DNA of 64,000 nt from Pararoseomonas baculiformis (lineage in GTDB: Bacteria; Pseudomonadota; Alphaproteobacteria; Acetobacterales; Acetobacteraceae). The DNA is taken from positions 186,001 through 250,000 of the forward strand of contig NZ_JAGIZB010000004.1 in assembly GCF_017813395.1 (NCBI RefSeq), written 5' to 3'. The position numbers and the translations under genes are program-made. This document shows, in pieces, positions 5,291-63,142 of this stretch. Under the pieces are notes generated by a model. The model had not been told where the DNA came from and searched no databases. It saw only the letters and a program-made list of their open reading frames with translations. Positions within the stretch are counted from its first letter, which is position 1; each line of letters begins with the position of its first letter.

Positions 5291-5503
5291 GCCGCAGTCT
5301 TGGCCCTGCCCGGGGCCGGGGGGAAGCCTGGCCCTGGGCCGCGCAGCTCCGGGCCGCAGGGATGCTGTCGGCGATTTCAACGCCGGCCGCCGGTTCGGGG
5401 CTTGGGCCCGGGCGCCGGGCGCACTAGATCGTGAGCTTCCGACAGCCAGGGGCCACGCAGGGCCCCTCCGGGCCATCCCGGCCCTGGGAGCGAACCGCCA
5501 CCG

Positions 5504-6148
5504 ATGGACGGCACGATCAATCTGGCCCCGCCCACCGGCGAGGACATGGGGCATGAGGGCGCTCCCATTTCCCGAATCGTCGCGGAGGTCGCGGCGACCT
5601 TCCCCGGAGAACGCATCACGCTCGGCGAGATGTCCGAGGCCTTCGGGGACCGTGCCTTCGGGCTTCTGATCCTTCTCCTGCTGCTTCCCTCGCTCCTGCC
5701 CGGCATGGCGACGGTCTTTGGCCTGCCCATGCTGCTGCTGGGCGTGCAGATGGGCATGGGGCGGCGTGTGCCGAGGCTGCCGGCCTTCATGGCCCGCCAG
5801 TCCATCAAGCGGACAGACCTGCTGCGCCTCGCCGGGGCCTCCTCCAAATGGCTGCGGCGGATCGAGTGCTATGTCCGGCCGCGCTCGGGGCCCTTCACCT
5901 CCCCTTTCGGGGACCGGCTCTTCGGCTGGCTCACCGTCTATGTCGCGATCATGCTCATCCTCCCCGGCCCGGGCACGAATGGTCCGCCCGCCTTCGGCAA
6001 CATCGTCATGGCGCTGGGATTGGTGGAGCATGATAGCAAGACGATGGGCTGGGGCATCGTCCTGACCCTGCTGGGCTGCCTCTTCGCCACCGCCGTCCTG
6101 GCCGTGCTCTGCTGGCTGGGCATCGAGGCGCTCGGCTTCGTGTTCTAG
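5504..6148 (+). CDS. exoD: ExoD family membrane protein
   Basis: The 214-residue protein matches the ExoD family: an N-terminal cytoplasmic helix region (IVAEVAATFPGERITLGEM), then hydrophobic segments around residues 50-90 (LLILLLLLPSLLPG), 145-158 and 180-210. FGDRAFGLLILLL and the conserved tail WGIVLTLLG support the call. ExoD was first linked to exopolysaccharide synthesis and symbiosis in Sinorhizobium; its biochemical role is not settled. The leader carries a 7-bp GC hairpin at 5448-5467. It is monocistronic here, divergent from DUF1194 and followed by the riboswitch region. Confidence 0.8.
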   Translation: MDGTINLAPPTGEDMGHEGAPISRIVAEVAATFPGERITLGEMSEAFGDRAFGLLILLLLLPSLLPGMATVFGLPMLLLGVQMGMGRRVPRLPAFMARQSIKRTDLLRLAGASSKWLRRIECYVRPRSGPFTSPFGDRLFGWLTVYVAIMLILPGPGTNGPPAFGNIVMALGLVEHDSKTMGWGIVLTLLGCLFATAVLAVLCWLGIEALGFVF

Positions 6149-6229
6149 GAAGCACAGCGGGCAGAAGAGCAACACCTGCCTGCCCGCACCCCCTCCCGGC
6201 GCGCCCCGTGCCGCGATACACGCCCGCCC

Positions 6230-6437
6230 CATGCGCCGGTGGCCCGCAAGGGCTGAAACGGGAATGCGCGACGTGCCCCGGCTCCCCTGGAGCGGGGGCG
6301 CCCATCCGCAGCTGCCCTCGCAACTGTAGGCGGCCGATGCGGCCCCCAAGGCCATTGCCACCCTCCGGGCTGGTGAGAAGGCGGGGGCCGATCCCTCGTG
6401 AGAGGAGGCCGCGAGCCAGGAGACCGGCCGGCGCAGA
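6230..6437 (+). ncRNA. Cobalamin (AdoCbl) riboswitch
   Basis: The conserved blocks occur in the correct order: CGGTGGCCC...GGGCTGAAACGGGAA near the start (6230-6264), GCCCTCGCAACTGTAGGCGG (6313-6332), a GCTGGTGAGAAGGCGG block (6369-6384) and the B12 box GAGCCAGGAGACCGGCC (6413-6429). These are the signature elements of the AdoCbl riboswitch, which turns off B12 uptake or synthesis genes when cobalamin is plentiful. It lies upstream of the TonB receptor gene, whose ATG is about 160 nt downstream; the expression platform presumably occupies 6438-6595. Together these explain the 447-bp stretch between exoD and btuB. Confidence 0.93.
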
Positions 6438-6595
6438 GCTGTCTCGCGCGTGCCGGGCGAGGTGCACCGGCGCAACGGACCTTTGGACAGGGGGCACAAC
6501 CGCCCCTTCCGCTGGCGAGAACCGCGTCCACCGCCGCGTGCCCTCCTCCTGGGGGGCGCGCGGCTGATCGTGACCGCTCGGCTGGGGATAACCCG

Positions 6596-8584
6596 ATGCG
6601 ACGCCTTCTTCTGCTCTCCTTCACCGCCCTTTCCTTCCCCGCCCTGGCGCAGGGGACGAATCCGGGGACCAATCCGGGCACGCCGCCCGTCACCCAGCCC
6701 AGCGCTGCCGTGGCCGAGACGGTGGTAACCGCCACCCGCGTGCCGACGCCCATCGAGCGCGTGCCCGGCGCCGTGACCGTGATCGACCGCCAGACCATCG
6801 AGGAACGCGGCTACCAGACCCTTTCCGAGGCCCTGGCCACCGTGCCGGGCCTGGCGCTGATCCAGTCCGGCGGGCTGGGCCAGCCGGCCAGCGCCTTCAT
6901 CCGCGGCACCGCCTCCCGCCACGCCCTGGTGCTGCTGGACGGCGTGCCGGTAAACGATGTCTCCGAGCCGAATGGCGCCTTCAACTTCGGCAACGACCTG
7001 CTGGGGATGGAGGTGGAGCGCATCGAGGTGCTGCGCGGCCCCGCCTCATCTCTTTATGGATCAGGCGCGATCGGCGGGGTGGTGAACATCGTCACCCGCC
7101 GTGCCCCGCGTGGCCAGGTGGCGGCGCCCTTCGGTGAGCTGGCGGGCGGCAGCAACCGTACCCTGCGCGCCCAGGCCGGCGTCACCGGCACGGCAGGCGC
7201 GTTCGACTATCTCCTCGCCCTGCGCAGCCTCTCCACCCGCGGCACGGATGCCACCCCTTCCCGCATCGAGGGCAACACGGGCGAGCGCGACGGCTTCCGC
7301 AGCGCCGGCGCCACGGTGCGCCTGGGCTGGACGCCGAGCGAGCGCTTCCGCCTGGAAGGCCTTGCCAGCTGGCGGGAGAACCATGGCGGGCTGGACAATG
7401 TGCCCTTCGACGACCCGAACTACTCCTTCGAGGATCGCCGCTACACGGGCCAGCTCCGCGCCGAGGGCAAGCCTTTCGATGTCTGGACCACCGGCTTCCG
7501 AATCGCCCGCACCGTGGACCGCCGCCGCTACTCCAACCTGGCTGACAGCTTCGACCTCTCCACCACCGACGACCTGTATCGCGGCGAGCGCACGGTCTTT
7601 GACTGGGGCAACCAGATCCGCCTGCCCGATGCCGGGTTCATCGACCAGAGCCAGATCGCCTTCGGCCTGACGCATGAGCGGGAGGAGGTGCGCCAGGCTT
7701 CCGGCAGCGCCTTCTTCCGCACCACCACCAACGCCGATGCGGACCTCACCGCCGGGCATGTGGGGTACCAGCTGCGCCTGTTCCGGCGCCTCGACCTGAC
7801 CGCGGGCATCCGCAATGACAGCGCGGAGGATTACGGCACCCACACCACCTACCGGCTCGGCGCCGTGCTGGCCGTGCCGGAGATTTCCGCCCGCATCCGC
7901 ACCGCCTATGGCACGGCCTTCAAGGCGCCCTCGCTCTACCAGCGCTATGGCCGGATCTCCGGCTTCTTCCAGGGCAATCCGGAGCTGCGCCCCGAGACAT
8001 CCCAGGGCTGGGAAGCGGGCATCGAGTTCGACCTGCCGCTGGGTGCGCAGCGCGACTTCGCGACGCTCGGCGCCACCTATTTCGACAACCGCATCCGCGA
8101 CCTGATCAACTTCGATCCCTTCTTCACCTCGCTGGAGAATGTGGACCGCGCGCGGATCAAGGGCGCGGAGTTCACCGCCACGCTGCGCCCGGCCCGGTGG
8201 CTGACGGCATCCGCCGCCTACACCATCACCGATGCCCGCGACGCCCGCACCGGCGAGCGCCTGGCACGCCGGCCGGAGCAGCAGCTGGCCCTGAACGCCA
8301 GCATCCGCCCGGTGGCGAACGTGACCATCGCGCCGGAGCTGATCGTCTATGGCCGCTCGCGCGAGGGCGCCTTCGCCTCCTACCGCAACGATGGCAGCGC
8401 CTACACCGTGCCGCGGGACAACAAGGCCGGCACCATCTTCAACCTGACCGCGACCTGGCAGGTGACCGAGCCGGTGGCGCTGTTCGTGGAGGGCCGCAAC
8501 CTGACCGACAGCGACTTCGAGCCGGCGAACGGCTTCGTCATCCCGGGCCGCACCGTTCTGGCGGGAACGCGCTTCCGGTTCTGA
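6596..8584 (+). CDS. btuB: TonB-dependent vitamin B12 receptor, BtuB-like
   Basis: A 662-residue outer membrane receptor. Signal peptide residues 1-19 (MRRLLLLSFTALSFPALAQ); TonB box region ETVVTATRVPTPIERVP; plug domain about 45-160 with VPGLALIQSGGLGQPASAFIRG and IEVLRGPASSLYGSGAIGG; then a 22-strand barrel ending GFVIPGRTVLAGTRFRF with terminal Phe. Length and the cobalamin riboswitch in the leader identify it as the B12 transporter. The ATG at 6596 is chosen because it gives the signal peptide; upstream codons in the same frame lie in the riboswitch. No btuCDF or cob genes are adjacent, so the inner-membrane partner is encoded elsewhere. Confidence 0.9.
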   Translation: MRRLLLLSFTALSFPALAQGTNPGTNPGTPPVTQPSAAVAETVVTATRVPTPIERVPGAVTVIDRQTIEERGYQTLSEALATVPGLALIQSGGLGQPASAFIRGTASRHALVLLDGVPVNDVSEPNGAFNFGNDLLGMEVERIEVLRGPASSLYGSGAIGGVVNIVTRRAPRGQVAAPFGELAGGSNRTLRAQAGVTGTAGAFDYLLALRSLSTRGTDATPSRIEGNTGERDGFRSAGATVRLGWTPSERFRLEGLASWRENHGGLDNVPFDDPNYSFEDRRYTGQLRAEGKPFDVWTTGFRIARTVDRRRYSNLADSFDLSTTDDLYRGERTVFDWGNQIRLPDAGFIDQSQIAFGLTHEREEVRQASGSAFFRTTTNADADLTAGHVGYQLRLFRRLDLTAGIRNDSAEDYGTHTTYRLGAVLAVPEISARIRTAYGTAFKAPSLYQRYGRISGFFQGNPELRPETSQGWEAGIEFDLPLGAQRDFATLGATYFDNRIRDLINFDPFFTSLENVDRARIKGAEFTATLRPARWLTASAAYTITDARDARTGERLARRPEQQLALNASIRPVANVTIAPELIVYGRSREGAFASYRNDGSAYTVPRDNKAGTIFNLTATWQVTEPVALFVEGRNLTDSDFEPANGFVIPGRTVLAGTRFRF

Positions 8585-8683: not shown

Positions 8684-10657
8684 CTACCGCGCCACCCCTG
8701 GAGGCAGCCGCGCCCCGGGCATGGCCGGCTCCGCCAGCGCGGCCGCCACGCTCTCCCGCGGGGCGCCGAGGAAACGGCCCTGCGCGAAGTCGGCGCCGAG
8801 CTTCCCCAGCATCCTCCACTCCGCCTCATTCTCCACGCCCTCCACCACCGTGGCCGCGCCGAAGGCACGGGCGATGTCGAGCAGCGCGCAGAGGACGGGC
8901 TCCCGCTGCGGTGCCCCGATCCGCAGGACCGAGCCGTCCACCTTCACCATGTCGAACCGGAAGTCGTGCAGCGAGGCCAGCTTCGAATAGCCCGTGCCGA
9001 AATCATCCAGCGCGAGCAGCACGCCCATGGCGCGAAGGCTCCGAAGCTTCTCCCGCACGCTTCCAGGGCGCGCGGTGAGCGTGCGCTCCGTCAGCTCGAG
9101 CACCAGCCGGGATGGCTGCAGCCCGGTGCGATGCAGGATTGCCCCGATCCCGGAGATCAGCCCGGGCTGGCTGAACTGCACGGGCGAGAGATTCACCGCG
9201 ATGCGCCAGCTTCCGCCCACCGCCGCCTCGCAGGCCTTCTCGATCGCCCAGAGGCCGATCGGCACGATCAGCCCGGTTTCCTCGGCCACGGGGACGAACA
9301 CCTCCGGCGACACCGGCCCGAGTTCCGCGCTGCGCCAGCGTAGCAGCGCCTCCAGCCCCTCCACCCGCCCATCCGCCACGCGGCGCATGGGCTGGAAATC
9401 CAGGGACAGCTCCTCCCGCTCAAGCGCGAGCTGGAGGGCGGCCGGCACTGTCGCGGCGGAGCGGAGCTGGCGCATCGCCGCCCCCTCAGGCCACGCCCGG
9501 TCGCGGCGCTCCGTCTGCACGGGCGCCTCCTGCCCGTGCAGGCGCACGCTGTTCCCGCCGCGACGCTTCGCCTCGTACAGGCTCTGGTCGGCCAGGCGGA
9601 GCAGCGTGTCCGCATCCCCCTCCCCGGTCAGGCATCCACCCACGCTCACGCCGACACGCAGCTCCGTGCCGCAGGGCAGGACATAGGGTTCGGAAAGCTG
9701 GCCGACGATGCGCTGCCCGATTTCCAGAACCCTGGCGGCATCCACATCCCGCAGCAGCACGGCGAATTCATCTCCGCCCAGGCGCCCGGCGACATCATCC
9801 GGGCGAACGGCGCCGCGCAGCCGCTCCGCCACCAGGCGGAGCAGCGCATCCCCGGCGGCGTGGCCATGGATATCATTCACGGTCTTGAAGCCGTCCAGGT
9901 CGAGAAGGAGCACTGCGGCCGGCTGGTTCCCCGCCTCCGTGATCTCCTCCAGTTCCCGCGCGATGCTGCGGCGGTTCGGCAGGCCGGTCAGCGTGTCATG
10001 CATGGCCTGGTGGGCCAGCTCGTGCAGCACCTCTACCTCCCGCGTGCGGTCGCGCGTCGTGCCGCGAAAGCCGATCAGCACCCCGGCTTCCGAGCGGACC
10101 GGCACGCCGTTGGACTGGAAATGGCGAATGGAGCCATCGGACTGGCGCAGGCTGAACTGGAAGTCGCGGAAAGGCTCCCCGGCGGCCTGTCCCGCCAGAC
10201 GGCGAGCCCAGATCTCGGGCGGGGTGATGGGATCGCGCGCCGGATAATCGGCGATCATGCCCCCGATGCGGGCGCATTCATCGCCCCGATGAATCCCGTT
10301 GTGGTCGGAGATGAAGGTGAAGCGCCCCTCCAGATCCGTCTCCCAGACCATGTCGGAACAGCATTCCGCCAGATCCCGCGCCCGCCGAAGCGCGAGGAGA
10401 AGCTCGACATTCAGCGCCTTCAGGCGCGCGACCTGTTCCCGCCTGTGACCGACCAGCCGCCGGATCAGCAGGAAGAGCAGGAGCCCATGGGCCAGGATGA
10501 GGCCCGTATCCCAGGAGGCCGTCAGGACAAGGAAGTGGCCCTGCCTCTCGGGCAGGGTGGCGATCAGCCCGGCGGTCAGCAGGCCGAATTGCAGCGAGAT
10601 GAGGAGCGAAACAGGCGGATGGCGAAAAACCACGCTGTCACTCCCCGGAATGGACAA
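8684..10657 (-). CDS. Bifunctional diguanylate cyclase/phosphodiesterase (PAS-GGDEF-EAL)
   Basis: The 657-residue protein has two N-terminal transmembrane helices (about 18-35 and 48-66), a PAS-like domain (about 90-215), a GGDEF domain (about 220-380) with the intact motif RLGGDEFAVLL, and an EAL domain (about 405-645). EAL residues visible are LEALLRW (Glu-Ala-Leu), NLSPVQF, LELTERT, DDFGTGYSKLASL, KVDGSVL and VVEGVENEAE, so both halves look competent for cyclic di-GMP turnover; the final QG-x3-x2-P site reads QGRFLGAP. It would tune motility, adhesion or polysaccharide output at the membrane. It is monocistronic, converging on btuB. Confidence 0.9.
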   Translation of the reverse strand: MSIPGSDSVVFRHPPVSLLISLQFGLLTAGLIATLPERQGHFLVLTASWDTGLILAHGLLLFLLIRRLVGHRREQVARLKALNVELLLALRRARDLAECCSDMVWETDLEGRFTFISDHNGIHRGDECARIGGMIADYPARDPITPPEIWARRLAGQAAGEPFRDFQFSLRQSDGSIRHFQSNGVPVRSEAGVLIGFRGTTRDRTREVEVLHELAHQAMHDTLTGLPNRRSIARELEEITEAGNQPAAVLLLDLDGFKTVNDIHGHAAGDALLRLVAERLRGAVRPDDVAGRLGGDEFAVLLRDVDAARVLEIGQRIVGQLSEPYVLPCGTELRVGVSVGGCLTGEGDADTLLRLADQSLYEAKRRGGNSVRLHGQEAPVQTERRDRAWPEGAAMRQLRSAATVPAALQLALEREELSLDFQPMRRVADGRVEGLEALLRWRSAELGPVSPEVFVPVAEETGLIVPIGLWAIEKACEAAVGGSWRIAVNLSPVQFSQPGLISGIGAILHRTGLQPSRLVLELTERTLTARPGSVREKLRSLRAMGVLLALDDFGTGYSKLASLHDFRFDMVKVDGSVLRIGAPQREPVLCALLDIARAFGAATVVEGVENEAEWRMLGKLGADFAQGRFLGAPRESVAAALAEPAMPGARLPPGVAR

Positions 10658-10811
10658 CCATGAAGGGTGAAGCCCCTGTTCGCGACCGCATGCCGCGATC
10701 AGGCTTCGATCAACTCTCGTTATGATTGCAAGTTTCGCCTGCGAGAACCCTCCACGGCTTCACGAGTTCTCATGAGGTCGGCCCGAAAGGCCGGCCAATG
10801 GGCCTGCAGAA

Positions 10812-10838
10812 GGGGGAAGCGCCCGCCGGGGCGCCCCC
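10812..10838 (-). terminator. Candidate terminator after the M20 peptidase gene
   Basis: GCGCCC (10819-10824) pairs with GGGCGC (10829-10834) around a GCCG loop, and flanking G5 and C5 runs can extend the stem with a two-base bulge. It begins just downstream of the peptidase stop codon (10849) on the minus strand. The remaining gap to 10657 shows only a weak CGGCC/GGCCG hairpin at 10779-10793 and AT-richer sequence suited to the promoter of the GGDEF-EAL gene's neighbour. Confidence 0.45.
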
Positions 10839-10848
10839 GCCCCGACCG

Positions 10849-11991
10849 TCAAAGCGTCTCCAGCAGCCCCAGGATCACCTGCCCCCGTGGCGCCAGGTCG
10901 CGCCACAGGATGTGCTCGTTCGGCGCATGGGCGCCGGCGCCGGTGCAGCCCAGCCCGTCCAGGGTGGGAACCCCCATGGCAGCGGTGAAGTTGCCGTCGG
11001 AGCCGCCGCCCCGGTGCTGCTTGGGCAGTTCGTAGCCGGCCTCGCGCGCCAGGGTCCGGGCGCGCTCATACAGCTTCAGGATATCCGCGTTCTCGGCGAA
11101 GGAGGGGCGGTTCATCCCACCCTCGATGGTGATGGTGATGCCATCCTCCGTCCCGGCCAGGGCGAGGATCTCTTTCTCCATCCGCTCGCCATCGGCCAGT
11201 GTGGCCACGCGCAGGTCGATCTCGCAGCCGGCCTCGGGCGGGATCACGTTGGGGCGGGTGCCGCCCCAGACCGGCGCGACATTGGTCGTGGTGCCGCCCG
11301 CCAGGTCCACCATGGCATGCACCTTCCCGATCAGCGCGGCCAGTGCCACCACGGCGCTGCGCCCCTCGGTCCAGTTGCCGCCGGCATGGGCGGAGACACC
11401 CTCGATCCTCACCACGAAGCGGCCCACGCCCTTGCGCGCCGTGACGCAGGCGCCGCCGGGATTGCCGGCCGGCTCGGGGATCAGCACGGCGGTCGCACCC
11501 CGCGCCTCGCGCTCGATGATCTCGCGGGAGGTCGGGCTGCCCACTTCCTCATCGGGCGTGAGCAGCAGGGTGACCGGGCTGCGGGTCTGCACCCCCTGGC
11601 GCAGGATCTCGCGCAGCGCGTTGAAGGCCAGGAACGAACCCGCCTTCATGTCATAGATGCCGGGGCCGAAGGCCTTCTCGCCCTCCACCCTCCAGGGCAT
11701 CGACTTCTCCAGCGTGCCGTGGTCCCAGACCGTGTCCAGGTGCCCGGCGATCACCACGGGCGGGCGGTTGCCCGTGGCCGGGCTGGACCGGGTGCGGGCG
11801 ATCAGCGTGTCGCCATAGCCATCCCGGCCCGGGATGCGCTCCAGCTCGGCGCCGGCCTCGCGCAGCTCCGCCTCGATCCGGTCGATCAGCCCGTTCACGG
11901 CCTTCGGGTCGGTGGTCGGCGTCTCATGCAGCACCCAGCCGCGCAGCTCCTCCAGCAGGGCCTCGCTGGTGCCGATCCGGGTCTGGGGCAT
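10849..11991 (-). CDS. M20 family metallopeptidase (glutamate carboxypeptidase type)
   Basis: A 380-residue zinc peptidase of the M20/ArgE/CPG2 group. Motifs: VVIAGHLDTVW (first metal His and Asp), FGPGIYDMKAGSFLAF (bridging Asp), TLLLTPDEEVGS (catalytic Glu-Glu), LIPEPAG, and HRGGGSDGNFTAAMGVPTLDGLG with the final metal His in TGAGAHAPNEHI. The lid domain carries GVSAHAGGNWTEGRSA. The set fits carboxypeptidase G2-like enzymes that remove C-terminal Glu from peptides or folates. No signal peptide, so probably cytoplasmic. Start MPQTRIG at 11991 is chosen because upstream codons lose homology-like character. It is divergent from the MaoC gene with 90 bp between. Confidence 0.85.
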   Translation of the reverse strand: MPQTRIGTSEALLEELRGWVLHETPTTDPKAVNGLIDRIEAELREAGAELERIPGRDGYGDTLIARTRSSPATGNRPPVVIAGHLDTVWDHGTLEKSMPWRVEGEKAFGPGIYDMKAGSFLAFNALREILRQGVQTRSPVTLLLTPDEEVGSPTSREIIEREARGATAVLIPEPAGNPGGACVTARKGVGRFVVRIEGVSAHAGGNWTEGRSAVVALAALIGKVHAMVDLAGGTTTNVAPVWGGTRPNVIPPEAGCEIDLRVATLADGERMEKEILALAGTEDGITITIEGGMNRPSFAENADILKLYERARTLAREAGYELPKQHRGGGSDGNFTAAMGVPTLDGLGCTGAGAHAPNEHILWRDLAPRGQVILGLLETL

Positions 11992-54391: not shown

Positions 54392-55048
54392 ATGGCCGAG
54401 GCTTCAGCACCTGTTCTTCTCGTCGTGGTGGATACGGTCTGCCCCTGGTGCTGGATCGGCAAGCGTCGGCTTGACGCGGCGCTGGCGGTGCTGGCCGCGG
54501 ATGGGCTGCCGCTGGCCCGGCAATGGCATCCCTTCCAGCTCAACCCCGATATGCCGCCGGGCGGCATGCCGCGCGCCGAGTACCGCACGCGGAAATTCGG
54601 CAGCCTGGAACGCGGGCGGCAGCTGGATGCGCGGGTCGCGGCGGAGGGTGCCAAGGATGGCATCCCCTTCGATCTCGAACGGATCGAGCGCAGCCCGAAC
54701 TCGCTCGACAGCCACCGCCTGATACGCCTGGCCATGCTGGAAGGCGGGGCCGCGCTGTCCGACCGCGTGGTGGAGGGCATCTTCGCCGCCTATTTCGCCG
54801 AAGGGCGCGATATCGGCGACAGGACCGTCCTGGCGGCGATCGGCGATGCCGCCGGCCTTCCCCCCGGCCGCTCCGCAGCCATGCTGGAAAGCGAGGAAGG
54901 CGTGGCGGCGGTGAAGGAGGATGTCGCCCGGGCCCAAGGCCTTGGCGGTGTTCCGGCCGTGATCCTGAACCGGCGGCTGATCATCTCCGGCGCGCAGTCC
55001 CCCGATGCCATGGCGGCGGCCATCCGCGAAACGCTGGAGGCAGCCTAG
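54392..55048 (+). CDS. DsbA-family oxidoreductase, FrnE type
   Basis: The 218-residue thioredoxin-fold protein has VVDTVCPWCWIGKRRLDAAL (redox Cys17 and Cys20, CPWC), HPFQLNPDMPPGGMPRAEYRTRKFGS and a late GVPAVILNRRLIISGAQSPDAM. This is the FrnE/2-hydroxychromene-2-carboxylate-isomerase-like DsbA group, cytoplasmic because no signal peptide is present. FrnE in Deinococcus is a disulfide isomerase induced by oxidative stress. AGAGG lies 10 bp before the ATG. Its TAG shares the CTAG palindrome with the convergent hpnE stop. Confidence 0.85.
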   Translation: MAEASAPVLLVVVDTVCPWCWIGKRRLDAALAVLAADGLPLARQWHPFQLNPDMPPGGMPRAEYRTRKFGSLERGRQLDARVAAEGAKDGIPFDLERIERSPNSLDSHRLIRLAMLEGGAALSDRVVEGIFAAYFAEGRDIGDRTVLAAIGDAAGLPPGRSAAMLESEEGVAAVKEDVARAQGLGGVPAVILNRRLIISGAQSPDAMAAAIRETLEAA

Positions 55049-56244
55049 CCCAGCGCCTTCGCGGCGCGGCGGCCGGAACGGATCGCGGCATCGATGGTCG
55101 CGGGCAGCACCGGCTCCATCCAATCCCCGGCAAGGGCCAGGTTGCGCAGGGCCAGGATCGGGGGTGGCGGGGGATCGCCCGGGCGGTGGCGCGGGGTCGC
55201 GCGCCGCTCCTTCACCGCCCGGCAGGGCGGCGGCTCCTCCGGCCAGTCTCCGGCTAGGGCGAAGGCCCGGGCCAGCTGGCGGATTTCGGACCAGGCGCGC
55301 GGCGCCAGATCGGCGGCCGCCTCGCGCGCCTCGGCATCGGCCGCGCTGACGGTCACGGCGATGGCGCCGGGCCGCACCAGCACCCATTGGCAAAGCCCGC
55401 CCAGCACACCGAGAAAGCGCACCGGCCCCGGCGTGGCATGGCCGAAATGCAGGTTCAGGATCGGCGCGTGCTCCGTGGGCACCCGCAGACGCGGCAGCAG
55501 CCGCGCCACTTCCCAGGGCGGCAGGGCGAGGATCGCGCGATCCCCCTGCCCCATCACCACCACCTCATCCCCGAAATCCAGCGCGGCCAGGCGGTGATGC
55601 TCGATCCGCAGCGCGCGGAGGCGGGCATTGTGGTGCATCATCCCGCCCCGGGCGCGGATGGCCGCCAGCGCCGGCTCCACGAGGTCCGGCCCCAGCCCGC
55701 GCCGCGCCACCAGCAGCCGGGCCGCGCCGGGCGTGCCCACGCGGCGCAGCACGGCCGCCAGACGGCGGGAGGAAGCCTCCTGCACCGGCGTGTTGAGCGC
55801 GGCGATCACCAGCGGTTCCACGAAGCCGCGCAGGAATGTGGGATGGGCCGCAAGGGCCGGGCCCACTGCCCTGTCCCCCGGCCCGGCCAGCCGCATCAAT
55901 GCGGCCAGCCCACGCGCCGTCAGCCCATCCGGGCGCTTCGCCGCGCGCAGCCATCCCAGGGGCGAAAGCGCCACGCGCCGGGCGCGGCCATCGGCCATGT
56001 CGAGAACCGGCAGGCCGTCGGGCTCCGGTTCCACCCACTCGTCCAGCGCTCCGATGCCGCGCAGGAAGTCCAGCGCCATGCGGTTCGCGCCCAGCAGGGC
56101 ATGGGTGCCGTTATCCGTGCCGTCCGGCAGCGCCCGCGCCCGCCCGCCGGCCACCATGGCGGCCTCATGCACCACCACGGGCCCATGCACCGCCAGGGCG
56201 GCGGCAAGGCCGGCCATGCCGGCGCCGATCACATGGGTGGTCAT
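55045..56244 (-). CDS. hpnE: Hydroxysqualene dehydroxylase
   Basis: A 399-residue FAD amine-oxidase-fold protein: N-terminal THVIGAGMAGLAAALAVHGP (GxGxxG), NGTHALLGANRMALDFLRGIG, LNTPVQEASSRRLAAVLRRV, RRGLGPDLVEPALAAIRARGG and the closing LALAGDWMEPVLPATIDAAIRSGRRAAKAL. These are HpnE features; HpnE reduces hydroxysqualene to squalene with FADH2. Slightly short of the usual 410-450 residues. It is the last gene of the pigment operon, 61 bp after the hpnC-hpnD fusion, and ends in a 4-bp overlap with the convergent frnE-like gene. Confidence 0.9.
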   Translation of the reverse strand: MTTHVIGAGMAGLAAALAVHGPVVVHEAAMVAGGRARALPDGTDNGTHALLGANRMALDFLRGIGALDEWVEPEPDGLPVLDMADGRARRVALSPLGWLRAAKRPDGLTARGLAALMRLAGPGDRAVGPALAAHPTFLRGFVEPLVIAALNTPVQEASSRRLAAVLRRVGTPGAARLLVARRGLGPDLVEPALAAIRARGGMMHHNARLRALRIEHHRLAALDFGDEVVVMGQGDRAILALPPWEVARLLPRLRVPTEHAPILNLHFGHATPGPVRFLGVLGGLCQWVLVRPGAIAVTVSAADAEAREAAADLAPRAWSEIRQLARAFALAGDWPEEPPPCRAVKERRATPRHRPGDPPPPPILALRNLALAGDWMEPVLPATIDAAIRSGRRAAKALG

Positions 56245-56305
56245 GCCTTGGCCCGGTTCGGCCCCGCGGAAGGCTCCGCTTTTCCTGGGCAAGCAGCGCG
56301 CCGCA

Positions 56306-57910
56306 TCACCAGCCCAGCGCCATCACCGCCAACCGGGCCTTCTCCGCACGGCCCAGGTGCGGGCGCAGCCGCGGCGGATGGAAGCCGCGCGCGGCGAGGC
56401 GCTGGAGGATGCGGTGATAGGCCCACATCATCACCCGCGCCGGCCGAAGGGTCTTCGCATCGGCACCGGCCAGCGCGGCTTCCGCGGCGGCGAAGCCGTC
56501 CTCGGCGCGGGCGAGGAGGCGGTGGCATGCCTCGTGAATGTCAGGGCGGCTGAGAAGGGTATCCGCATCGGCATCGGGGCCGAGCCAGGAGAGCGGGATA
56601 TAAACCCGGTCCCGCACCGCATCCTCGTCGATGTCGCGCAGGATGTTGACGAGCTGGAGGGTGCGGCCGAGCGCAAGGCCGAAGGCCTCCGCCTCCGGCG
56701 CGCCGAAGATGCGGACGGAGAGCACGCCCACGCTGCCGGCGACACGGCGGCAGTAAAGGTCCAGCGCGGCCTCGTCCGGGATGCGGAGGCGGGCAGTGGA
56801 ATCCGTCTCCATCCCCTCGATCATCGCCTCGCATTCGGATCGGGGCAGATCGAACGCGGCCCGGGCCCAGGACAGCTCGCGGGAGACGGCGCAATCCGGC
56901 GCGTCGAGTTTCCGCCGCCACTCGGCGAGGAACTGGCGCTTCTCGGCCTCGGGCGTGGCGCCGTCCGCGATATCATCCACGGCGCGGCAGAAGGCATAGA
57001 CCGCGTAGAGGGCGCGGCGGCGCTCCCCTCTCAACGAGGCCATGCCCTTGGAGAAGGATGAGCCGGCACGCGCCACGCGGGCGCGGACGAGCCTGGCGTC
57101 CGATGGACCGCCGGAAGGCGCGGCGGCCAGGGCGGCGAGGAAGTCCAGCCTGGTCAGCGCCACCCGCCCGGCCATGGGGTCGGCGGCGCGCAGCCGGGCC
57201 AGCAGGCGCCTGGCGCAGCCGATGGTGGTGGCCGATTGAAAGGCCAGGCGGCGGCTCTTCAGAAGGCGCGGCAGGGCGGCGGCCATGTCCAGCAAGGTGT
57301 CCGTGCGGTCCAGCAGGGCATCCAGCACGGCGCGGCGCGGGGCGGCCTCGATGAACACGGTTTCCTCGCCGCCCACCTGCTCCATCCAGGCCCGTGGGAG
57401 ATAGATGCGGCCGAGCTCCCGCCGGTCATCGCCCATGTCCTGCAGATGGTTCAGCACCTGCAGCGCGGTGCAGAGGGCATCGGCGGCCTGGAAGGCCGCG
57501 GGCTCTGCCTCGCCATGCAGGCGCAGCAGCATCCGCCCCACGGGATTGGCGGAATGGGCGCAGTAATCGGCCAGTGCGTTCCAGTCCTCGTAGCCCTCGT
57601 TCCGGGCATCCCGGCGGAAGGCGGTGAGCATGGCCCGCGCCTCCTGCACGCCGGCGCCGCTCTCCCGCAGGGCCGTGGCCTCGGGCACGCCCGGGCCGCC
57701 ATCCAGCGCGGCCTCGATCAGGTCCAGGCGCCGAAGCTTCTCGGCGGGCTGGAGGTCCGGCGCGTCCGCGATGTCATCGGCCAGCCGAACGACACGGTAG
57801 AAGGCGAGGACGCGGCCGCGCATCTCCGGCGCGAGAAGGCGGGAGGCGACCGGAAAATTCTCGGAATCCGGGCCGCGCGTGGCGGGACCGGCGGCGATGC
57901 TGGCGCTCAT
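56306..57910 (-). CDS. Fused squalene-pathway enzyme: HpnC (hydroxysqualene synthase) - HpnD (presqualene diphosphate synthase)
   Basis: One uninterrupted frame of 534 residues holds two trans-isoprenyl diphosphate synthases. Residues 1-262 are HpnC: SENFPVASRLLAPEMRGRVL, first Asp motif DDIAD (45-49) and second NHLQDMGDD (154-162), GRIYLP. A 14-residue linker (about 262-275, AAPSGGPSDA) leads to HpnD, 276-534: GSSFSKGMASL, DDIAD (312-316), YCRRVAGSVGVLSVRIFG, NILRDIDED (422-430), DRVYIPLSWLG. HpnD condenses two farnesyl diphosphates to presqualene diphosphate and HpnC turns it into hydroxysqualene; all four Asp motifs are intact, so both activities are expected. Usually these are separate genes of about 280 residues. 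The ATG at 57910 gives the canonical HpnC start and lies 10 bp after the glycosyltransferase stop. Confidence 0.93.
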   Translation of the reverse strand: MSASIAAGPATRGPDSENFPVASRLLAPEMRGRVLAFYRVVRLADDIADAPDLQPAEKLRRLDLIEAALDGGPGVPEATALRESGAGVQEARAMLTAFRRDARNEGYEDWNALADYCAHSANPVGRMLLRLHGEAEPAAFQAADALCTALQVLNHLQDMGDDRRELGRIYLPRAWMEQVGGEETVFIEAAPRRAVLDALLDRTDTLLDMAAALPRLLKSRRLAFQSATTIGCARRLLARLRAADPMAGRVALTRLDFLAALAAAPSGGPSDARLVRARVARAGSSFSKGMASLRGERRRALYAVYAFCRAVDDIADGATPEAEKRQFLAEWRRKLDAPDCAVSRELSWARAAFDLPRSECEAMIEGMETDSTARLRIPDEAALDLYCRRVAGSVGVLSVRIFGAPEAEAFGLALGRTLQLVNILRDIDEDAVRDRVYIPLSWLGPDADADTLLSRPDIHEACHRLLARAEDGFAAAEAALAGADAKTLRPARVMMWAYHRILQRLAARGFHPPRLRPHLGRAEKARLAVMALGW

Positions 57911-57920
57911 GACGGGTGGA

Positions 57921-59015
57921 TTATGCCCCATCCGCGGCGCGATAGGCGCGCCCCTTCCATCCTGCGGGACGGCCCAGCGCGGAACGGGCCAGGGCAGTCC
58001 ATTGGATGGCGAGGGCGACGGCGACGGTGGCGGGATGCAGGGGAATGGTCCAGCTCGGCTCCCGCCCGCGCCAGGTGATGGCGGCCCGGGTGAGATAGGT
58101 GATGATGAGGGCCGCCGCCGCGAGCGGGCTCGGCAGCAGCAGCCAGGGCAGAAGATGGCCGCCCGCCAGCAGCAGTGTCCAGACCGGAAGGCCGATGGGC
58201 GTCGCCATCCCCTCCCGCGCATTCTTCAGGAAGCCGTTCCAGGCCTCGCCGAAGCCGCCATACATGCGGCAGTCGGCGAGCGGGGCGCCATCCACCACCT
58301 CCGTCCGGTGGCCGCCGATGCGGAGGTTGCGGGCCAGGGCCAGGCCGTCATGCAGGCGGTGGCGGAAGGCGGCATGGCCGCCGACCGATTCATAGGCACC
58401 GCGCTCCACCAGGATCAGCTGGCCGCAGGCCGCGGCCATGGCGGGGTGCTGCGTGAAGGCCCGGCCGGCGCCGGGAAGATAGCCCAGCATCATGAGGTTG
58501 ATGGCCGGGACCGTGAGCCCCTCCCCCAGCGTCGCGATCCGCTGGCGCGGGACGCCCGTGACCAGGGCGAGGTTTTCGGCCTGCGCATGCGCGGCCATCC
58601 GGGCGGCGGCATCCGGGGCCAGGCGGACATCGGCATCGATGAACAGCAGATGCGTGCCCCGCGCCGCCTCGGCGAGGCGGGCGCAGGCATGCACCTTCCC
58701 CGTCCAGCCCGGCGGCAGGGGCGGCGCGTGCAGCAGGCGCAGGCGCGGATCGGTGGCGGCGCGGCGGGCGACGATCCCGGGCGTGGCATCGCGCGAGCCG
58801 TCATCCATCACCAGCACCTCGATCTCCACCCCGGTGCTGGCCAGGGCGGCGTCCAGGCAGGTGGCGATGTTGGCGGCCTCGTCCCGCGCGGGGATGAGGA
58901 TGGAGACAAGGGCGCCCGGCGCGGGCCTGCCCGCCGCCCGGCCCAGCAGGCACAGGTTGGCCGCCGCCATGCTGGCGGGGAACATGGCAAGCGCCAGTGC
59001 CAGCGCATCCATCAT
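57921..59015 (-). CDS. Family 2 glycosyltransferase, carotenoid-associated (CrtQ-like)
   Basis: The 364-residue membrane enzyme has an N-terminal helix, then the GT2 core: VSILIPARDEAANI, VLVMDDGSRDATPGIV, PPGWTGKVHACARLAEAARGTHLLFIDADVRL (the DxD motif DAD), and CRMYGGFGEAWNGFLKNAREGM, followed by three or more C-terminal helices and the end GWKGRAY. The TGK-HAC, R-MY-x-GF and WKGR-Y features resemble 4,4'-diaponeurosporenoate glycosyltransferase (CrtQ) of the staphyloxanthin pathway; HpnB-like hopanoid glycosyltransferases are the alternative. It probably glucosylates the carotenoid end group. Two adjacent ATGs (59015, 59012) are possible. Confidence 0.82.
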   Translation of the reverse strand: MMDALALALAMFPASMAAANLCLLGRAAGRPAPGALVSILIPARDEAANIATCLDAALASTGVEIEVLVMDDGSRDATPGIVARRAATDPRLRLLHAPPLPPGWTGKVHACARLAEAARGTHLLFIDADVRLAPDAAARMAAHAQAENLALVTGVPRQRIATLGEGLTVPAINLMMLGYLPGAGRAFTQHPAMAAACGQLILVERGAYESVGGHAAFRHRLHDGLALARNLRIGGHRTEVVDGAPLADCRMYGGFGEAWNGFLKNAREGMATPIGLPVWTLLLAGGHLLPWLLLPSPLAAAALIITYLTRAAITWRGREPSWTIPLHPATVAVALAIQWTALARSALGRPAGWKGRAYRAADGA

Positions 59016-59059
59016 CGGCTGGCCACCTCTTTGCTCATCTCCGTCCTCACACGCCCATC

Positions 59060-59854
59060 CTAGCCGGATTTCGTGCCATGGGCATGGCGAGGGTTGAAAC
59101 GCCGGCCACGGGCCAGGGCGGCGACATGGCGCCACAAATCATAAATGCCCCCCATGCCTTCCGCCCCTTCGGCCACGACCGTGAAGCGGGCGGGGTCGCG
59201 GGTCAGGGCCTCCGCGGTCAGGCGGTCCATGGTGCCGGTCAGCGCCTCGCGGATGCGCTCCTCGCGCGCCTCACGGTCCAGGGCGAGCAGCTCGGCCGCC
59301 GGAAGTGGCGGCCCGAAGGCGGCGAGCATGTCCGGGCGGCGCTCGGTCCAGAAAACGTAATCCAGGGCGAGCGGCAGCACGATCGCATCGGGGGCGATCT
59401 CGGGCAGCCGGGAGACACCGGGCGCGATGGCCACGGGGCGCTCCCGCACATCTTGGAAGCGGCCGGGCGCATTCATCCAGAGCATGGTGCCGGGCGAGGC
59501 CAGCACCGCCTTGGCCGTGCGCAGGAAGGCCACGGCGCCGCGCGGCCCGGGCTCGATCCCGAAGACGCCGAGGCGGCGCATGAACGGGTATTTCGCCAGC
59601 GCCGCCGCTTCCATTGGAATGAAGATGTGGCGGTGCGGAAGAAGGCGGACGGGCAGCAGCATGAAGGCCACGCCATCCCACCAGGACGGGTGGTTGGCCA
59701 GGACGATCAGCGGCCTGTCCCCGGCGTCCTGCGGGAAGCCCCAGGGGGGCATCCGCAGCGCGCCCATATGGCGCCGGAAGAAGCGCGCGAAGACGAAGTG
59801 GAAGAAGCCGAAGAGCCGCGCGTCGCGGAGCGCGAGGGGCGACGGCTCCGCCAT
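59060..59854 (-). CDS. PlsC-type acyltransferase in the carotenoid operon
   Basis: A 264-residue acyltransferase with block I LIVLANHPSWWDGVAFMLLP (His-x4-Asp), FIPMEAAALAKYPFMRRLGVFGI and a modified block III MLWMNAPGRFQDVRERP in place of FPEGTRS. The altered block III suggests a substrate other than glycerol-3-phosphates. In the operon it lies between the desaturases and the glycosyltransferase, so esterification of the carotenoid sugar, the role CrtO plays in staphyloxanthin, is inferred although it is not a CrtO homologue. It starts 2 bp after the oxidase stop. Confidence 0.78.
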   Translation of the reverse strand: MAEPSPLALRDARLFGFFHFVFARFFRRHMGALRMPPWGFPQDAGDRPLIVLANHPSWWDGVAFMLLPVRLLPHRHIFIPMEAAALAKYPFMRRLGVFGIEPGPRGAVAFLRTAKAVLASPGTMLWMNAPGRFQDVRERPVAIAPGVSRLPEIAPDAIVLPLALDYVFWTERRPDMLAAFGPPLPAAELLALDREAREERIREALTGTMDRLTAEALTRDPARFTVVAEGAEGMGGIYDLWRHVAALARGRRFNPRHAHGTKSG

Positions 59855-59856
59855 GC

Positions 59857-61482
59857 CTATTCGGCGGCCTGCGCCAGGAAGGCGTGCTGCCCCTGGGCGC
59901 GCAGGAGGGAATCCCGCGTGCCGGCCAGGCGCGCGGCCTCGCTCATGCCGCGCCCGCCCATGTCCTGGTCCATGGCGTCCGCCGCGATCCAGCCGGACAT
60001 CATCACCATCGGCATGCCCGGCCCGGGATGCGCGGCCCCGCCCGCGAGGTAGAGACCCTTCACCGCCCTGGAGCGGTTGCCCGGCTTGAAGGCCCCGGTC
60101 CAGGCGCCGTGGGAGGCGAGGCCGTAGATGGCGCCGTCCAGCACCTTGTAGCGGTCATGGATGTCCTGGGGCGTAAGAGCGCGCTCCACCACGATACGCT
60201 CCTCGATATCCTCCATCCCGGCGGTACGCTTCAGCTTGTCCAGGATCACCTGCCGGTATTGCGGCAGCATCTTCGACCAGTCCTGGCCCGGGCGGAGATG
60301 CGGGGTATGGACGAGCACATAGAGCGCCTCGCCCCCGTCCGGCGCCACGCTCGGATCCGTGGCGGAGGGCGCGGCGAGGTAGGCTGTGGGATCGGGAGCG
60401 GGGATGCCCTTCCTGTAGATGGCGTCGAACTCCTCCTCCGCGTCGCGGGAGAAGACGAAGTCGTGATGCGCGACGTGGTCGTAGCGGCGGTTGAGGCCGA
60501 GATAGAGCACGACGCCGGAGCAGGCCGGCTCGAAGCCCTTCTTCTCGTATTTGCGGCCGGTCTTCCCGCCGACGAGCTCCTTGTAGGTGCGGATGGCATC
60601 CATGTTGGAGATGACGGCATCGAAGGGGATGGTCTCTCCCTTCGCGATCACGCCGGCCACCCGCGTGCCGTTGTCGCGCAGGTCCAGCCCCGTCACCTCG
60701 GTGTTCGGGCGGAGATCGGCGCCGAGGGATGCTGCCAGCTTCGCCAGCCCTTCCGCCACGGCGCGCGTGCCGCCCACCGGATACCAGATGCCCTCGCTCG
60801 CCTGCATGTCGCCGATGCTGCAGAGCACGGCGGGCGCGAGATAGGGCGAGGAGCCGACATACTGGCAGTAATGGTCCAGCATCTGCGCCAGCCGCGCATC
60901 GGGCACATGGCCGCGGATCACCTTCGCCACGCGCTTGCCCATGCCGAGCGCCATCACGTCCTTCAGCGTGTCGGCGCGCAGATTGGCCTTGAAGTCGATT
61001 GTGTCCGCGATGCCTTCCACCGGCTTCCAGAAGAAGAAGCCCTCGGAGATCCGGTGCAGGTTCTCCGACATCGCCTGGAATTCGCGGTAGCCCTGGCCGT
61101 TGCCGGGCGCGAAGGCGTCCATGTCGCGCGCCATGTCATCGACATTCTCGCGCAGGTCGATCCGCGTGCCGTCATCGAAGAAGCAGCGCCATTGCGGGTC
61201 CAGCCGGATCAGCGGCAGGTCGCGCGCCTGCTCGCGCCCCGCTTCCGCGAAGATCCGGCGCAGGACGCGGGGCACGGTGAGAATGGTCGGGCCCATGTCG
61301 AAGCGGAAGCTGCCGCCGTTGCGCCCGCCCGGCTCCGACGGGGCATCGAGATGCAGCACCGCCGCCTTGCCGCCGAGCCAGTCATTCTTGTCGAACAGCG
61401 TGACCTCATGGCCGCGCGCCTGGGCGACGCAGGCGGCGGCCAGGCCGCCGAGACCGCCGCCGATGATGGCAACCTTGGCCAT
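59857..61482 (-). CDS. CrtI/CrtN-family FAD oxidoreductase, probable C30 carotenoid oxidase/second desaturase (CrtP/CrtNb-like)
   Basis: The 541-residue protein begins AKVAIIGGGLGGLAAACVAQARGHEV (FAD dinucleotide fold) followed by KNDWLGGKAAV and FRFDMGPTILTVPRVL, and ends in GLYLAGGAAHPGPGMPMVMMSGWIAADAM. The terminal HPGPGMPMV-MSG variant differs from the HPGxGLP of phytoene desaturases and is seen in terminal oxidases such as CrtP/CrtNb. It would oxidise a terminal methyl of the C30 chain or add desaturations. The exact reaction is inferred. It starts 2 bp after the desaturase stop. Confidence 0.8.
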   Translation of the reverse strand: MAKVAIIGGGLGGLAAACVAQARGHEVTLFDKNDWLGGKAAVLHLDAPSEPGGRNGGSFRFDMGPTILTVPRVLRRIFAEAGREQARDLPLIRLDPQWRCFFDDGTRIDLRENVDDMARDMDAFAPGNGQGYREFQAMSENLHRISEGFFFWKPVEGIADTIDFKANLRADTLKDVMALGMGKRVAKVIRGHVPDARLAQMLDHYCQYVGSSPYLAPAVLCSIGDMQASEGIWYPVGGTRAVAEGLAKLAASLGADLRPNTEVTGLDLRDNGTRVAGVIAKGETIPFDAVISNMDAIRTYKELVGGKTGRKYEKKGFEPACSGVVLYLGLNRRYDHVAHHDFVFSRDAEEEFDAIYRKGIPAPDPTAYLAAPSATDPSVAPDGGEALYVLVHTPHLRPGQDWSKMLPQYRQVILDKLKRTAGMEDIEERIVVERALTPQDIHDRYKVLDGAIYGLASHGAWTGAFKPGNRSRAVKGLYLAGGAAHPGPGMPMVMMSGWIAADAMDQDMGGRGMSEAARLAGTRDSLLRAQGQHAFLAQAAE

Positions 61483-61484
61483 GT

Positions 61485-63032
61485 TCAGATCCTCGTGGAG
61501 ACGGGTGCGCGGCCGAGGTCGCGCAGCAGCAGGCCGGCGCTGATGCGCGCGCCCTCATAGATCACGGGCAGGCCGGAGCCGGGATGGGTGCCTCCCCCGA
61601 CGAGATAGAGGCCGCGGGTGTCGCCGAAGCGGTTGCCCGGGCGGAACATCAGCATCTGGCGGAGGTCATGGGCCAGGTTGAAGGTGGCGCCGTACCCCAC
61701 GGCATATTCATCCCGCCAGTCGCGCGGCGTGACGCATTTCTCGAAGCGGATGCGCGATTCAATGTCCGGCACGCCGAGCGCGCGGAGCCGGTCCAGCGCC
61801 AGCCGCCGATAGCGCGCCGTATCGGCCTCGCTCCACTCGTGCCCATGGGTCAGGTTCGGCACGGGAACCAGGAGATAGAGGCTCGAATGCCCCTCCGGCG
61901 CCATGCTGCAATCCGTCGCGACCGGGTTGTGCAGATAGAGCGAGGGCGTGTCGGGCAGCGTGCCCCGCTCGATCTCCTGGATGTTCCGCTGATACTCCTC
62001 CGACAGGAGGATGGTGTGGTGCGCGAGGTCCGGGAAACGCCCCTCCACGCCGAGATAGAGCATGAAGGTCGAGCAGGAGTAGCGCGCCTTGCCGATCTTG
62101 CGGTCCGACCACTGCCGCCGGATGGCGTCCGGCACGAGCTTCGGCATGGCATGGGCGAAGTCGGCGTTCATCACCACGCCATCGGCGTCGATCCGCCGGC
62201 CACCGGCCTCAACGCCCGTCGCGCGGTTCCCGTCGAACAGCACGCGCTCCACGGGTGTGTCGAAGCGGAACTCCACGCCCAAATCGGCCGCCACCCGCGT
62301 CATGGCGGTGGCCACCGCGCCGCATCCGCCGCGCGGATGGAACACGCCATGCTCGTATTCGAGGAAGGAGAGGATGGTGAACAGGCTGGGGCAGCGGAAC
62401 GGGCTCATCCCCAGGTATTTCGACTGGAAGGAGAAGGCGAGGCGCGTGCGCGGGTCGCGGAAATGCCGGCGCAGGTCGGAATCGACCGAACGGCCCGGCC
62501 GCAGCAGCGGCAGCGCACGCAGCATGTCCGCGCCCATCACATCGGCCGCCCGCGTGAAGGCGCGCTCCAGCACGGGGCGGAAGGCGGCAAGCTTGCGGCG
62601 GTTCTCCGCCATGAAGGGGCGCACGCCGGCGGCATCGCGCGGATCGAGCTTCGCCACCTCCGCCTCCAGCCGCTCCAGGTCCGGCGTTGCGTCCAGCGTG
62701 ACGTTCCCCGCCGCATGCTCGAAGGTCAGCCGGTACTGGGGGTCGAGGCGGAGAAGCTCAACCTCCTCCTCCAGCACCGCGCCGCATTCGGCGAAGATCT
62801 CGGAGAGAATGCGCGGGTAGAGGAAGAAGGTGGGCCCCAGGTCGAAGCGGTAGCCGCCTTCGGCCTCGATGGTGCGGCTGCGTCCGCCAACGACCCGGTC
62901 CTTCTCGAGGACGGTGACGCGAAGGCCGCGCGCGGCGAGGAGCATGGCGGAGGCGAGCCCTCCGGGACCTGCTCCGACGATGACCGCATGGGGTCGTTCG
63001 GGGCGCAGGGAGGGGCGGCTTAGTGCGTTCAT
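61485..63032 (-). CDS. crtN: CrtI/CrtN-family desaturase, probable squalene/dehydrosqualene desaturase
   Basis: The 515-residue protein has HAVIVGAGPGGLASAMLLAARG (FAD fold, residues 16-37), EKDRVVGGRSRTIEAEGGYRFDLGPTFFLYPRIL, FSFQSKYLGMSPFRCPSLFTILSFLEYEHGVFHPRGG in pieces, and the C-terminal signature GLYLVGGGTHPGSGLPVIYEGARIS of bacterial carotene desaturases. Since squalene genes and no phytoene synthase share the operon, squalene or dehydrosqualene is the likely substrate. The ATG at 63032 has AGGAG upstream. It is the first gene of the pigment operon; the promoter presumably lies in 63033-63142. Confidence 0.85.
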   Translation of the reverse strand: MNALSRPSLRPERPHAVIVGAGPGGLASAMLLAARGLRVTVLEKDRVVGGRSRTIEAEGGYRFDLGPTFFLYPRILSEIFAECGAVLEEEVELLRLDPQYRLTFEHAAGNVTLDATPDLERLEAEVAKLDPRDAAGVRPFMAENRRKLAAFRPVLERAFTRAADVMGADMLRALPLLRPGRSVDSDLRRHFRDPRTRLAFSFQSKYLGMSPFRCPSLFTILSFLEYEHGVFHPRGGCGAVATAMTRVAADLGVEFRFDTPVERVLFDGNRATGVEAGGRRIDADGVVMNADFAHAMPKLVPDAIRRQWSDRKIGKARYSCSTFMLYLGVEGRFPDLAHHTILLSEEYQRNIQEIERGTLPDTPSLYLHNPVATDCSMAPEGHSSLYLLVPVPNLTHGHEWSEADTARYRRLALDRLRALGVPDIESRIRFEKCVTPRDWRDEYAVGYGATFNLAHDLRQMLMFRPGNRFGDTRGLYLVGGGTHPGSGLPVIYEGARISAGLLLRDLGRAPVSTRI

Positions 63033-63142
63033 GGGCTCCTGCGAAATCCCGGAGAGAAGTCCGGTGCGAACGCTGTTCAGCTTTGGTCGATGCCCGATCT
63101 TGCAAGGGCCGGCCAATCACGCCGCCGTGGCCGGATGATCCC

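Follow-up and report, generated by a model that had tools for sequence, protein, structure and literature searches.

A fused HpnC-HpnD gene in a C30-carotenoid operon of Pararoseomonas baculiformis

The three-step route to squalene runs from farnesyl diphosphate (FPP) through presqualene diphosphate and hydroxysqualene, the steps being carried out by HpnD, HpnC and HpnE respectively, as laid out in a hopanoid study of 2017 (PMC5462960). According to that study, most genomes of Acidobacteria SD2 carry a fusion of hpnC and hpnD and, by BLAST, fused hpnCD also occurs elsewhere, the closest being in Actinobacteria and in Alphaproteobacteria, for example Rhodospirillum centenum. In Methylobacterium extorquens AM1, a C30 carotenoid is reported to be made via a glycosyltransferase-acyltransferase-CrtP cassette (META1p3663-3665), for which squalene from HpnCDE is the proposed precursor (PMC10448405). 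The name hpnCD is written for the carotenoid cluster of Palleronia sp. LCG004 (PMC11638410); in a plasmid record for this strain, however, two genes are listed. A word search of the main text of a 2025 survey of alphaproteobacterial hopanoids (PMC12583986) found none of the words fused, fusion or HpnCD. Here we describe a fused hpnC-hpnD gene in Pararoseomonas baculiformis, within a window of 64,000 nucleotides (contig NZ_JAGIZB010000004.1, positions 186,001 to 250,000) to which all coordinates in Table 1 refer.

The fused gene and its two halves

Translation of the fused gene gave 534 codons and a stop, with no internal stop codons or frameshifts, and so bore out the original prediction of a single frame running uninterrupted across the junction. 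The ATG sits 10 bases past the end of the upstream glycosyltransferase ORF, which makes this start plausible. Against the NCBIfam models, the whole protein scored 313.4 bits for HpnC (TIGR03464, cut-off 250.45, model positions 5-265 of 267) and 316.8 bits for HpnD (TIGR03465, cut-off 278.6, model positions 2-262 of 267), and Pfam recognised two SQS_PSY stretches. The two domains had been predicted to be complete, and both models are above their cut-offs. The predicted junction near 57115 agrees with the 14-residue inter-domain stretch, and the four Asp motifs that had been called intact were all found in both the sequence and the alignment. The best single stretches on the genome DNA scored lower (222.3 bits for HpnC and 230.5 bits for HpnD, both under the cut-offs), because the two domains are akin and, on the whole protein, either model gains some score from the other half. 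The model for a one-protein squalene synthase (TIGR01559) gave 38.4 bits, under its cut-off of 286.75, which places the protein outside that family. HpnC comes first and HpnD second in one uninterrupted frame, as in the fusion of PMC5462960.

Table 1. Positions in the window of the fused gene, its domains and motifs, and the neighbouring genes of the operon.
Feature	Position	Strand	Evidence
HpnE-like hydroxysqualene dehydroxylase	55045..56292 (longest ORF; probable ATG 56244)	minus	TIGR03467, 230.2 bits, below cut-off of 283.05
Fused hpnC-hpnD gene, 534 aa	56306..57910 (stop codon included)	minus	One open frame; NCBIfam HpnC and HpnD above cut-off
HpnD domain, residues 279-529	56324..57076	minus	TIGR03465 match; by family, 2 FPP to presqualene diphosphate
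HpnD second Asp motif DIDED (D426-D430)	56621..56635	minus	Sequence and alignment of fused proteins
HpnD first Asp motif DDIAD (D312-D316)	56963..56977	minus	Sequence and alignment of fused proteins
Inter-domain stretch, residues 265-278 (14 residues)	57077..57118	minus	Gap between the two model matches
HpnC domain, residues 15-264	57119..57868	minus	TIGR03464 match; by family, presqualene diphosphate to hydroxysqualene
HpnC second Asp motif DMGDD (D158-D162)	57425..57439	minus	Sequence and alignment of fused proteins
HpnC first Asp motif DDIAD (D45-D49)	57764..57778	minus	Sequence and alignment of fused proteins
Glycosyltransferase family 2, CruG/HpnB-like	57921..59135 (longest ORF; probable ATG 59015)	minus	PF00535 over cut-off; NF045692 and TIGR03469 below
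Lysophospholipid-acyltransferase-family protein	59060..59854	minus	HX4D motif; homologues so annotated in plasmid records
CrtI-family oxidase, putatively CrtP-type (cluster position)	59857..61482	minus	TIGR02734, 391.3 bits, over cut-off
CrtI-family desaturase, putatively CrtN-type (cluster position)	61485..63116 (longest ORF; probable start 63032)	minus	TIGR02734, 511.7 bits, over cut-off

In some other fused enzymes one half is dead, and a half of this protein could likewise be catalytically inactive and act as a scaffold for the other. No support for this was found in our analysis, and we consider it highly improbable. The ten motif Asp positions checked (D45, D46, D49, D158, D162, D312, D313, D316, D426 and D430) are Asp in all 35 aligned fused proteins. 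Moreover, the HpnC half keeps 45 of the 46 columns that are conserved across 38 split HpnC, and the HpnD half keeps 44 of the 46 conserved across 38 split HpnD, the exceptions being A417T and T421V. Comparison with four congeners gave a dN/dS of 0.10-0.21 per half; both halves are under purifying selection and therefore neither looks dead. The genome contigs also yielded no other HpnC and no comparable HpnD (see below).

Residues 417 (56660-56662, minus strand) and 421 (56648-56650, minus strand) of our protein are Thr and Val, at positions where split HpnD have Ala and Thr in 38 of 38 sequences. These two changes may point to an altered product of the HpnD half. V421 was found in 23 of the 35 aligned fused proteins, including two that fall outside the main fused group of the concatenated tree described below (L024 from G042, and L054 from Oleispirillum).

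An AlphaFold2 model, made with the alignment of 35 fused proteins, had a mean pLDDT of 91.0 and a pTM of 0.89. Solved relatives by sequence include HpnC 4hd1, and fold matches for residues 267-534 include CrtM-like enzymes among the matches listed, which barely cover the N-terminal half. A search of viral structures gave no match at E <= 0.001.

Distribution and phylogeny of the fusion

A fusion seen in one draft genome alone could be an artefact, two genes having been joined by an assembly or sequencing error. The chance of this is negligible here, because independent genomes carry the same one-frame fusion. Eighty genomes were searched (including that of P. baculiformis), of which 60 contained a match and 20 held both domains in one stop-free frame, the fused proteins of the other genomes sharing 41-88% identity with ours. 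These 20 comprise 11 of the 15 in the genus (our own counted), seven other members of the family (G015, G018, G028, G034, G037, G041 and G042) and two from other families of the class (G061 and G079). A genome contig collection gave 16 fused loci in one frame out of 32, from four roseomonads (including Roseomonas rosea, R. pecuniae and Pararoseomonas indoligenes), ten Microvirga, Geminicoccus flavidas and Oleispirillum naphthae; at least 3 of these 16 were already in the 80-genome set. The fused protein of Roseomonas rosea DSM 14916 is 88% identical to ours. An independent plasmid record of Microvirga ossetica also carries the fusion, as a CDS of 552 aa. Two wider draws were made. The class-wide draw (241 genomes) gave 121 matches and at least 14 one-frame fusions including our own, among which G193 and G274 are weak and G225 is cut by a contig end. 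The phylum-wide draw (397 genomes) gave 15 matches and two uninterrupted fusions (our own and G617) at 1e-48, a strict limit which hides distant fusions.

Close relatives do not all have split genes, the outcome named in the original prediction as telling against a fusion. Ten of the 14 congeners contain it in one uninterrupted frame, three (G002, G003 and G011) have split genes of another lineage and one (G005) has no match. The carotenoid-type HpnE of G005 starts about 110 bases from a contig end and so its missing fusion may be an assembly gap; a search for CrtP in this genome gave nothing at E <= 1e-40.

Several loci lie between the fused and split arrangements. Two genomes (G460 and G296) have a match across both domains as one piece with one stop codon inside it, and at two loci (L083 in G199 and L109 in G136) the hpnC and hpnD frames are in register with a single stop codon between them. 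All four likely represent a state on the way to or from fusion. Loss of the stop codon between adjacent hpnC and hpnD genes would be the most probable way for the fusion to have arisen.

For the phylogeny 86 loci were looked at, nine of which were without one domain in the stretch examined. From the 77 with both domains five were dropped: one truncated at the end of its contig (L081), one whose HpnD was partial (L035), two weak and short ones (L110 and L111) and a near-copy of L030 (L096). The remaining 72 loci (34 fused, 38 split) were placed in a quick tree, with several long branches, from the HpnC and HpnD alignments set side by side. Twenty six fused proteins, from the family of P. baculiformis, Microvirga, Geminicoccus and family f15, formed one group (SH-aLRT 100%), with the other eight fused rows elsewhere. 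On this tree at least six changes between the fused and split states are needed, five of them forced by well supported branches, although such counts cannot separate gain from loss. Trees of the single domains required eight changes each, of which two (HpnD) and three (HpnC) were forced, and the group of 26 was intact in both.

A single clade of all fused proteins was tried and rejected (34 fused against 38 split rows, AU p = 2.9e-5), also after removal of the three longest fused branches (AU p = 7.6e-5). Therefore, fusions arose or split several times; an old fusion that was split repeatedly may be compatible with this result. The inter-domain length differs between groups, from -3 to +18 residues relative to our protein (L110 and L111 set aside), which fits separate joins. 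Lastly, in an rpoB tree, in which G011 was represented by the longer of two pieces with one stop inside, the three split congeners were nested beside the fused G013 (support 100/100). This suggests that they probably lost the fusion while keeping a split operon, or that a split operon was regained.

Carotenoid and hopanoid operons

Along the minus strand the operon reads CrtN-CrtP-acyltransferase-glycosyltransferase-HpnCD-HpnE, the order of a C30-carotenoid cluster. The CrtN and CrtP roles are putative, being assigned from position and family, and the acyltransferase-family protein had no Pfam or NCBIfam match at E <= 0.001. At E <= 1e-15 the genome has no HpnE match besides the one in this operon. 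Such clusters may also be shown in a PNAS paper of 2022 on how C30 carotenoids are made by way of squalene.

The order from CrtN to HpnCD was found in 13 of the 15 other roseomonad genomes in which the region was read (G001, G004, G006, G007, G008, G009, G012, G013, G014, G028, G034, G037 and G041). HpnE lies next to HpnCD in nine of these 13 and is absent there in four (G001, G004, G008 and G009). All ten Microvirga loci have the full order including HpnE. There are two exceptions among the roseomonads: Roseomonas sp. HF4 (L039) has HpnCD-HpnE alone, with no carotenoid genes in the stretch examined, and in G018 the carotenoid genes are on a separate contig from HpnCD. Two further genomes, G061 and G182, have only a CrtP-like gene before HpnCD-HpnE. 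The carotenoid-type HpnE of roseomonads score 224-264 bits (cut-off 283), against 384-422 bits for the hopanoid-operon HpnE of the genus, and would thus appear to be a distinct HpnE group whose genes annotation may miss.

P. baculiformis is also expected to produce hopanoids. Its squalene-hopene cyclase lies on another contig (G000:C34) in the order hpnA-hpnB-shc-hpnG, from which hpnC, hpnD and hpnE are absent. A profile search of the contigs found no second HpnC, and the only other HpnD match was of 30.5 bits. The assembly consists of 109 contigs with completeness given as 99.94%, and thus a pair of hpnC and hpnD genes could possibly have been missed in a gap. With no other HpnC or comparable HpnD, and a hopanoid operon without hpnCDE, the sequence data suggest that, very probably, the fusion has both activities and is the sole entry point of squalene for both carotenoids and hopanoids.

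A closer inspection of the congeners shows graded losses of hpnC, hpnD and hpnE from the hopanoid operon. The whole operon hpnA-B-C-D-E-shc-G is present in G002, G003 and G011, all without the fusion. Those with the fusion have A-B-D-E-shc-G (G004 and G008), A-B-E-shc-G (G001, G009 and, as far as it was read, G010) or A-B-shc-G (G006, G007, G012 and G014, in addition to P. baculiformis); A-B-shc-G was also found in G005, and G013 has shc-G, the 12 kb read there yielding no hpnA or hpnB. The four genomes whose carotenoid cluster is without HpnE all retain HpnE beside shc, and in G010, where the carotenoid cluster was read only partly, the sole HpnE adjoins shc. The fusion and the split hopanoid enzymes thus stand in for each other, and this comparison speaks for the fusion serving both pathways. 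Outside the genus, A-B-shc-G without C, D and E was found in G028, G034, G037 and G061. Neither the carotenoid operon nor the corresponding lack of hpnCDE in the hopanoid operon figured in the original prediction; these are the more informative facts.

Several other arrangements were observed. At one locus (L187 in G028, 4710-6731) the cyclase match is broken into two neighbouring pieces about 70 bases apart, which may reflect an insertion in the gene. Standalone HpnD genes lie beside HpnE and shc at L102 (G004, about 9829-10602) and L103 (G008, about 10240-11007). In G015 (L114), G042 (L115) and G159 (L120), other fused HpnCD, apart from our group in the tree, stand beside HpnE and shc.

Two strict associations were considered and rejected. 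The fusion is not tied strictly to carotenoid genes, since fused genes adjoin shc in the three genomes just named, and the stretches examined around HpnCD in Oleispirillum and in Roseomonas sp. HF4 showed no carotenoid gene beside it. Nor is it tied strictly to hopanoids, since G018 and G041 have the fusion and carotenoid genes with no match to shc.

We are confident, from sequence and gene context, in reading the fused protein as a bifunctional squalene-precursor enzyme of the C30-carotenoid operon which also feeds the squalene-hopene cyclase. Several points count against this: the HpnE of the operon scores below its curated cut-off, T417 and V421 may mean an altered product, a second hpnC and hpnD pair may lie in an assembly gap, and the fusion is not always accompanied by the carotenoid genes (L039, G018). 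We infer what the enzyme catalyses, that both products draw on it and what it may gain from being fused. The C-terminal HpnD half would join two FPP into presqualene diphosphate, which the N-terminal HpnC half would convert to hydroxysqualene, and the neighbouring HpnE would reduce this to squalene. Squalene from the fusion and HpnE would then go both to carotenoids and to the squalene-hopene cyclase.

Alternatively, the fused protein could serve carotenoids only, as a CrtM-like enzyme making dehydrosqualene or another C30 product. The gene sits in a carotenoid operon, residues T417 and V421 lie near the second Asp motif of HpnD, G018 and G041 have the fusion and no cyclase match, and CrtM-like enzymes are among the top structural matches listed for the C-terminal half, although their high rank is in part due to their being the members of the fold with solved structures. 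However, the HpnC and HpnE partners would be pointless for such an enzyme, and the P. baculiformis genome contains a cyclase with no other source of squalene found. A CrtM-like role is therefore very unlikely.

As to why the two halves of a bifunctional enzyme are joined, presqualene diphosphate could be handed from the HpnD site to the HpnC site without release. The two reactions are consecutive on one chain, the pTM of the model suggests a defined arrangement of the domains, and fused proteins in separate lineages suggest a benefit. However, many of the genomes searched have separate HpnC and HpnD genes. Moreover, G004 and G008 retain a standalone HpnD, grouping with that of G002, G003 and G011 (support 90, unstarred) and with a dN/dS of 0.22 between the two, with no standalone HpnC; its product would have to reach the HpnC half of the fusion. 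A standalone HpnD under purifying selection in genomes without a standalone HpnC suggests that presqualene diphosphate can pass between proteins, which would argue mildly against a closed channel, and we regard channelling as unlikely. Instead of a sealed channel, the fusion would provide both halves in equal amounts and close to each other. It is conceivable, if rather doubtful, that tight coupling within the chain together with T417 and V421 let the carotenoid-operon enzyme displace the hopanoid hpnC, hpnD and hpnE stepwise in roseomonads.

Significance and comparison with described systems

As a single polypeptide expected to turn FPP into hydroxysqualene, the fused protein would be useful for squalene engineering, and also for testing the release of presqualene diphosphate. 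The genus offers a natural series, in which the fusion goes with a partial or absent hopanoid hpnCDE and species with the whole hpnCDE are without it, so that functional equivalence is testable by genetics. The source of squalene can escape surveys of hopanoid genes if these trust annotation or expect hpnC, hpnD and hpnE next to shc.

The fusion is real, widespread and of a kind already described, and its genomic setting is informative. The original prediction did not recall it as a characterised enzyme. This stands in that openly licensed PMC papers yielded no biochemical characterisation, with neither an assay of any fused HpnCD nor a report of the displacement pattern found there, but the architecture itself is not novel, having been published in 2017 (PMC5462960). 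Like the fusion reported in that study, our protein carries HpnC and HpnD on a single chain, roughly double the size of either protein alone. It differs in its setting, as the SD2 gene is described in a hopanoid cluster whereas ours lies in a C30-carotenoid operon with the cyclase on another contig.

In M. extorquens AM1, squalene from HpnCDE is likewise described as common to hopanoids and a glycosylated, acylated C30 carotenoid (PMC10448405). There, however, hpnC, hpnD and hpnE are given as separate genes (META1p1815-1817) clustered with the cyclase, whereas in P. baculiformis hpnC and hpnD are one gene in the carotenoid operon. The plasmid of Microvirga ossetica (NZ_CP016619.1) offers a closer likeness, with the same gene order and one CDS of 552 aa (WP_162299269.1), annotated only as a squalene/phytoene synthase family protein, which is 53.6% identical to ours across 94% of the query. 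That locus differs from ours in being on a plasmid and in that a methyltransferase gene separates the two CrtI-family genes, and ispH follows the oxidoreductase at the position of HpnE.
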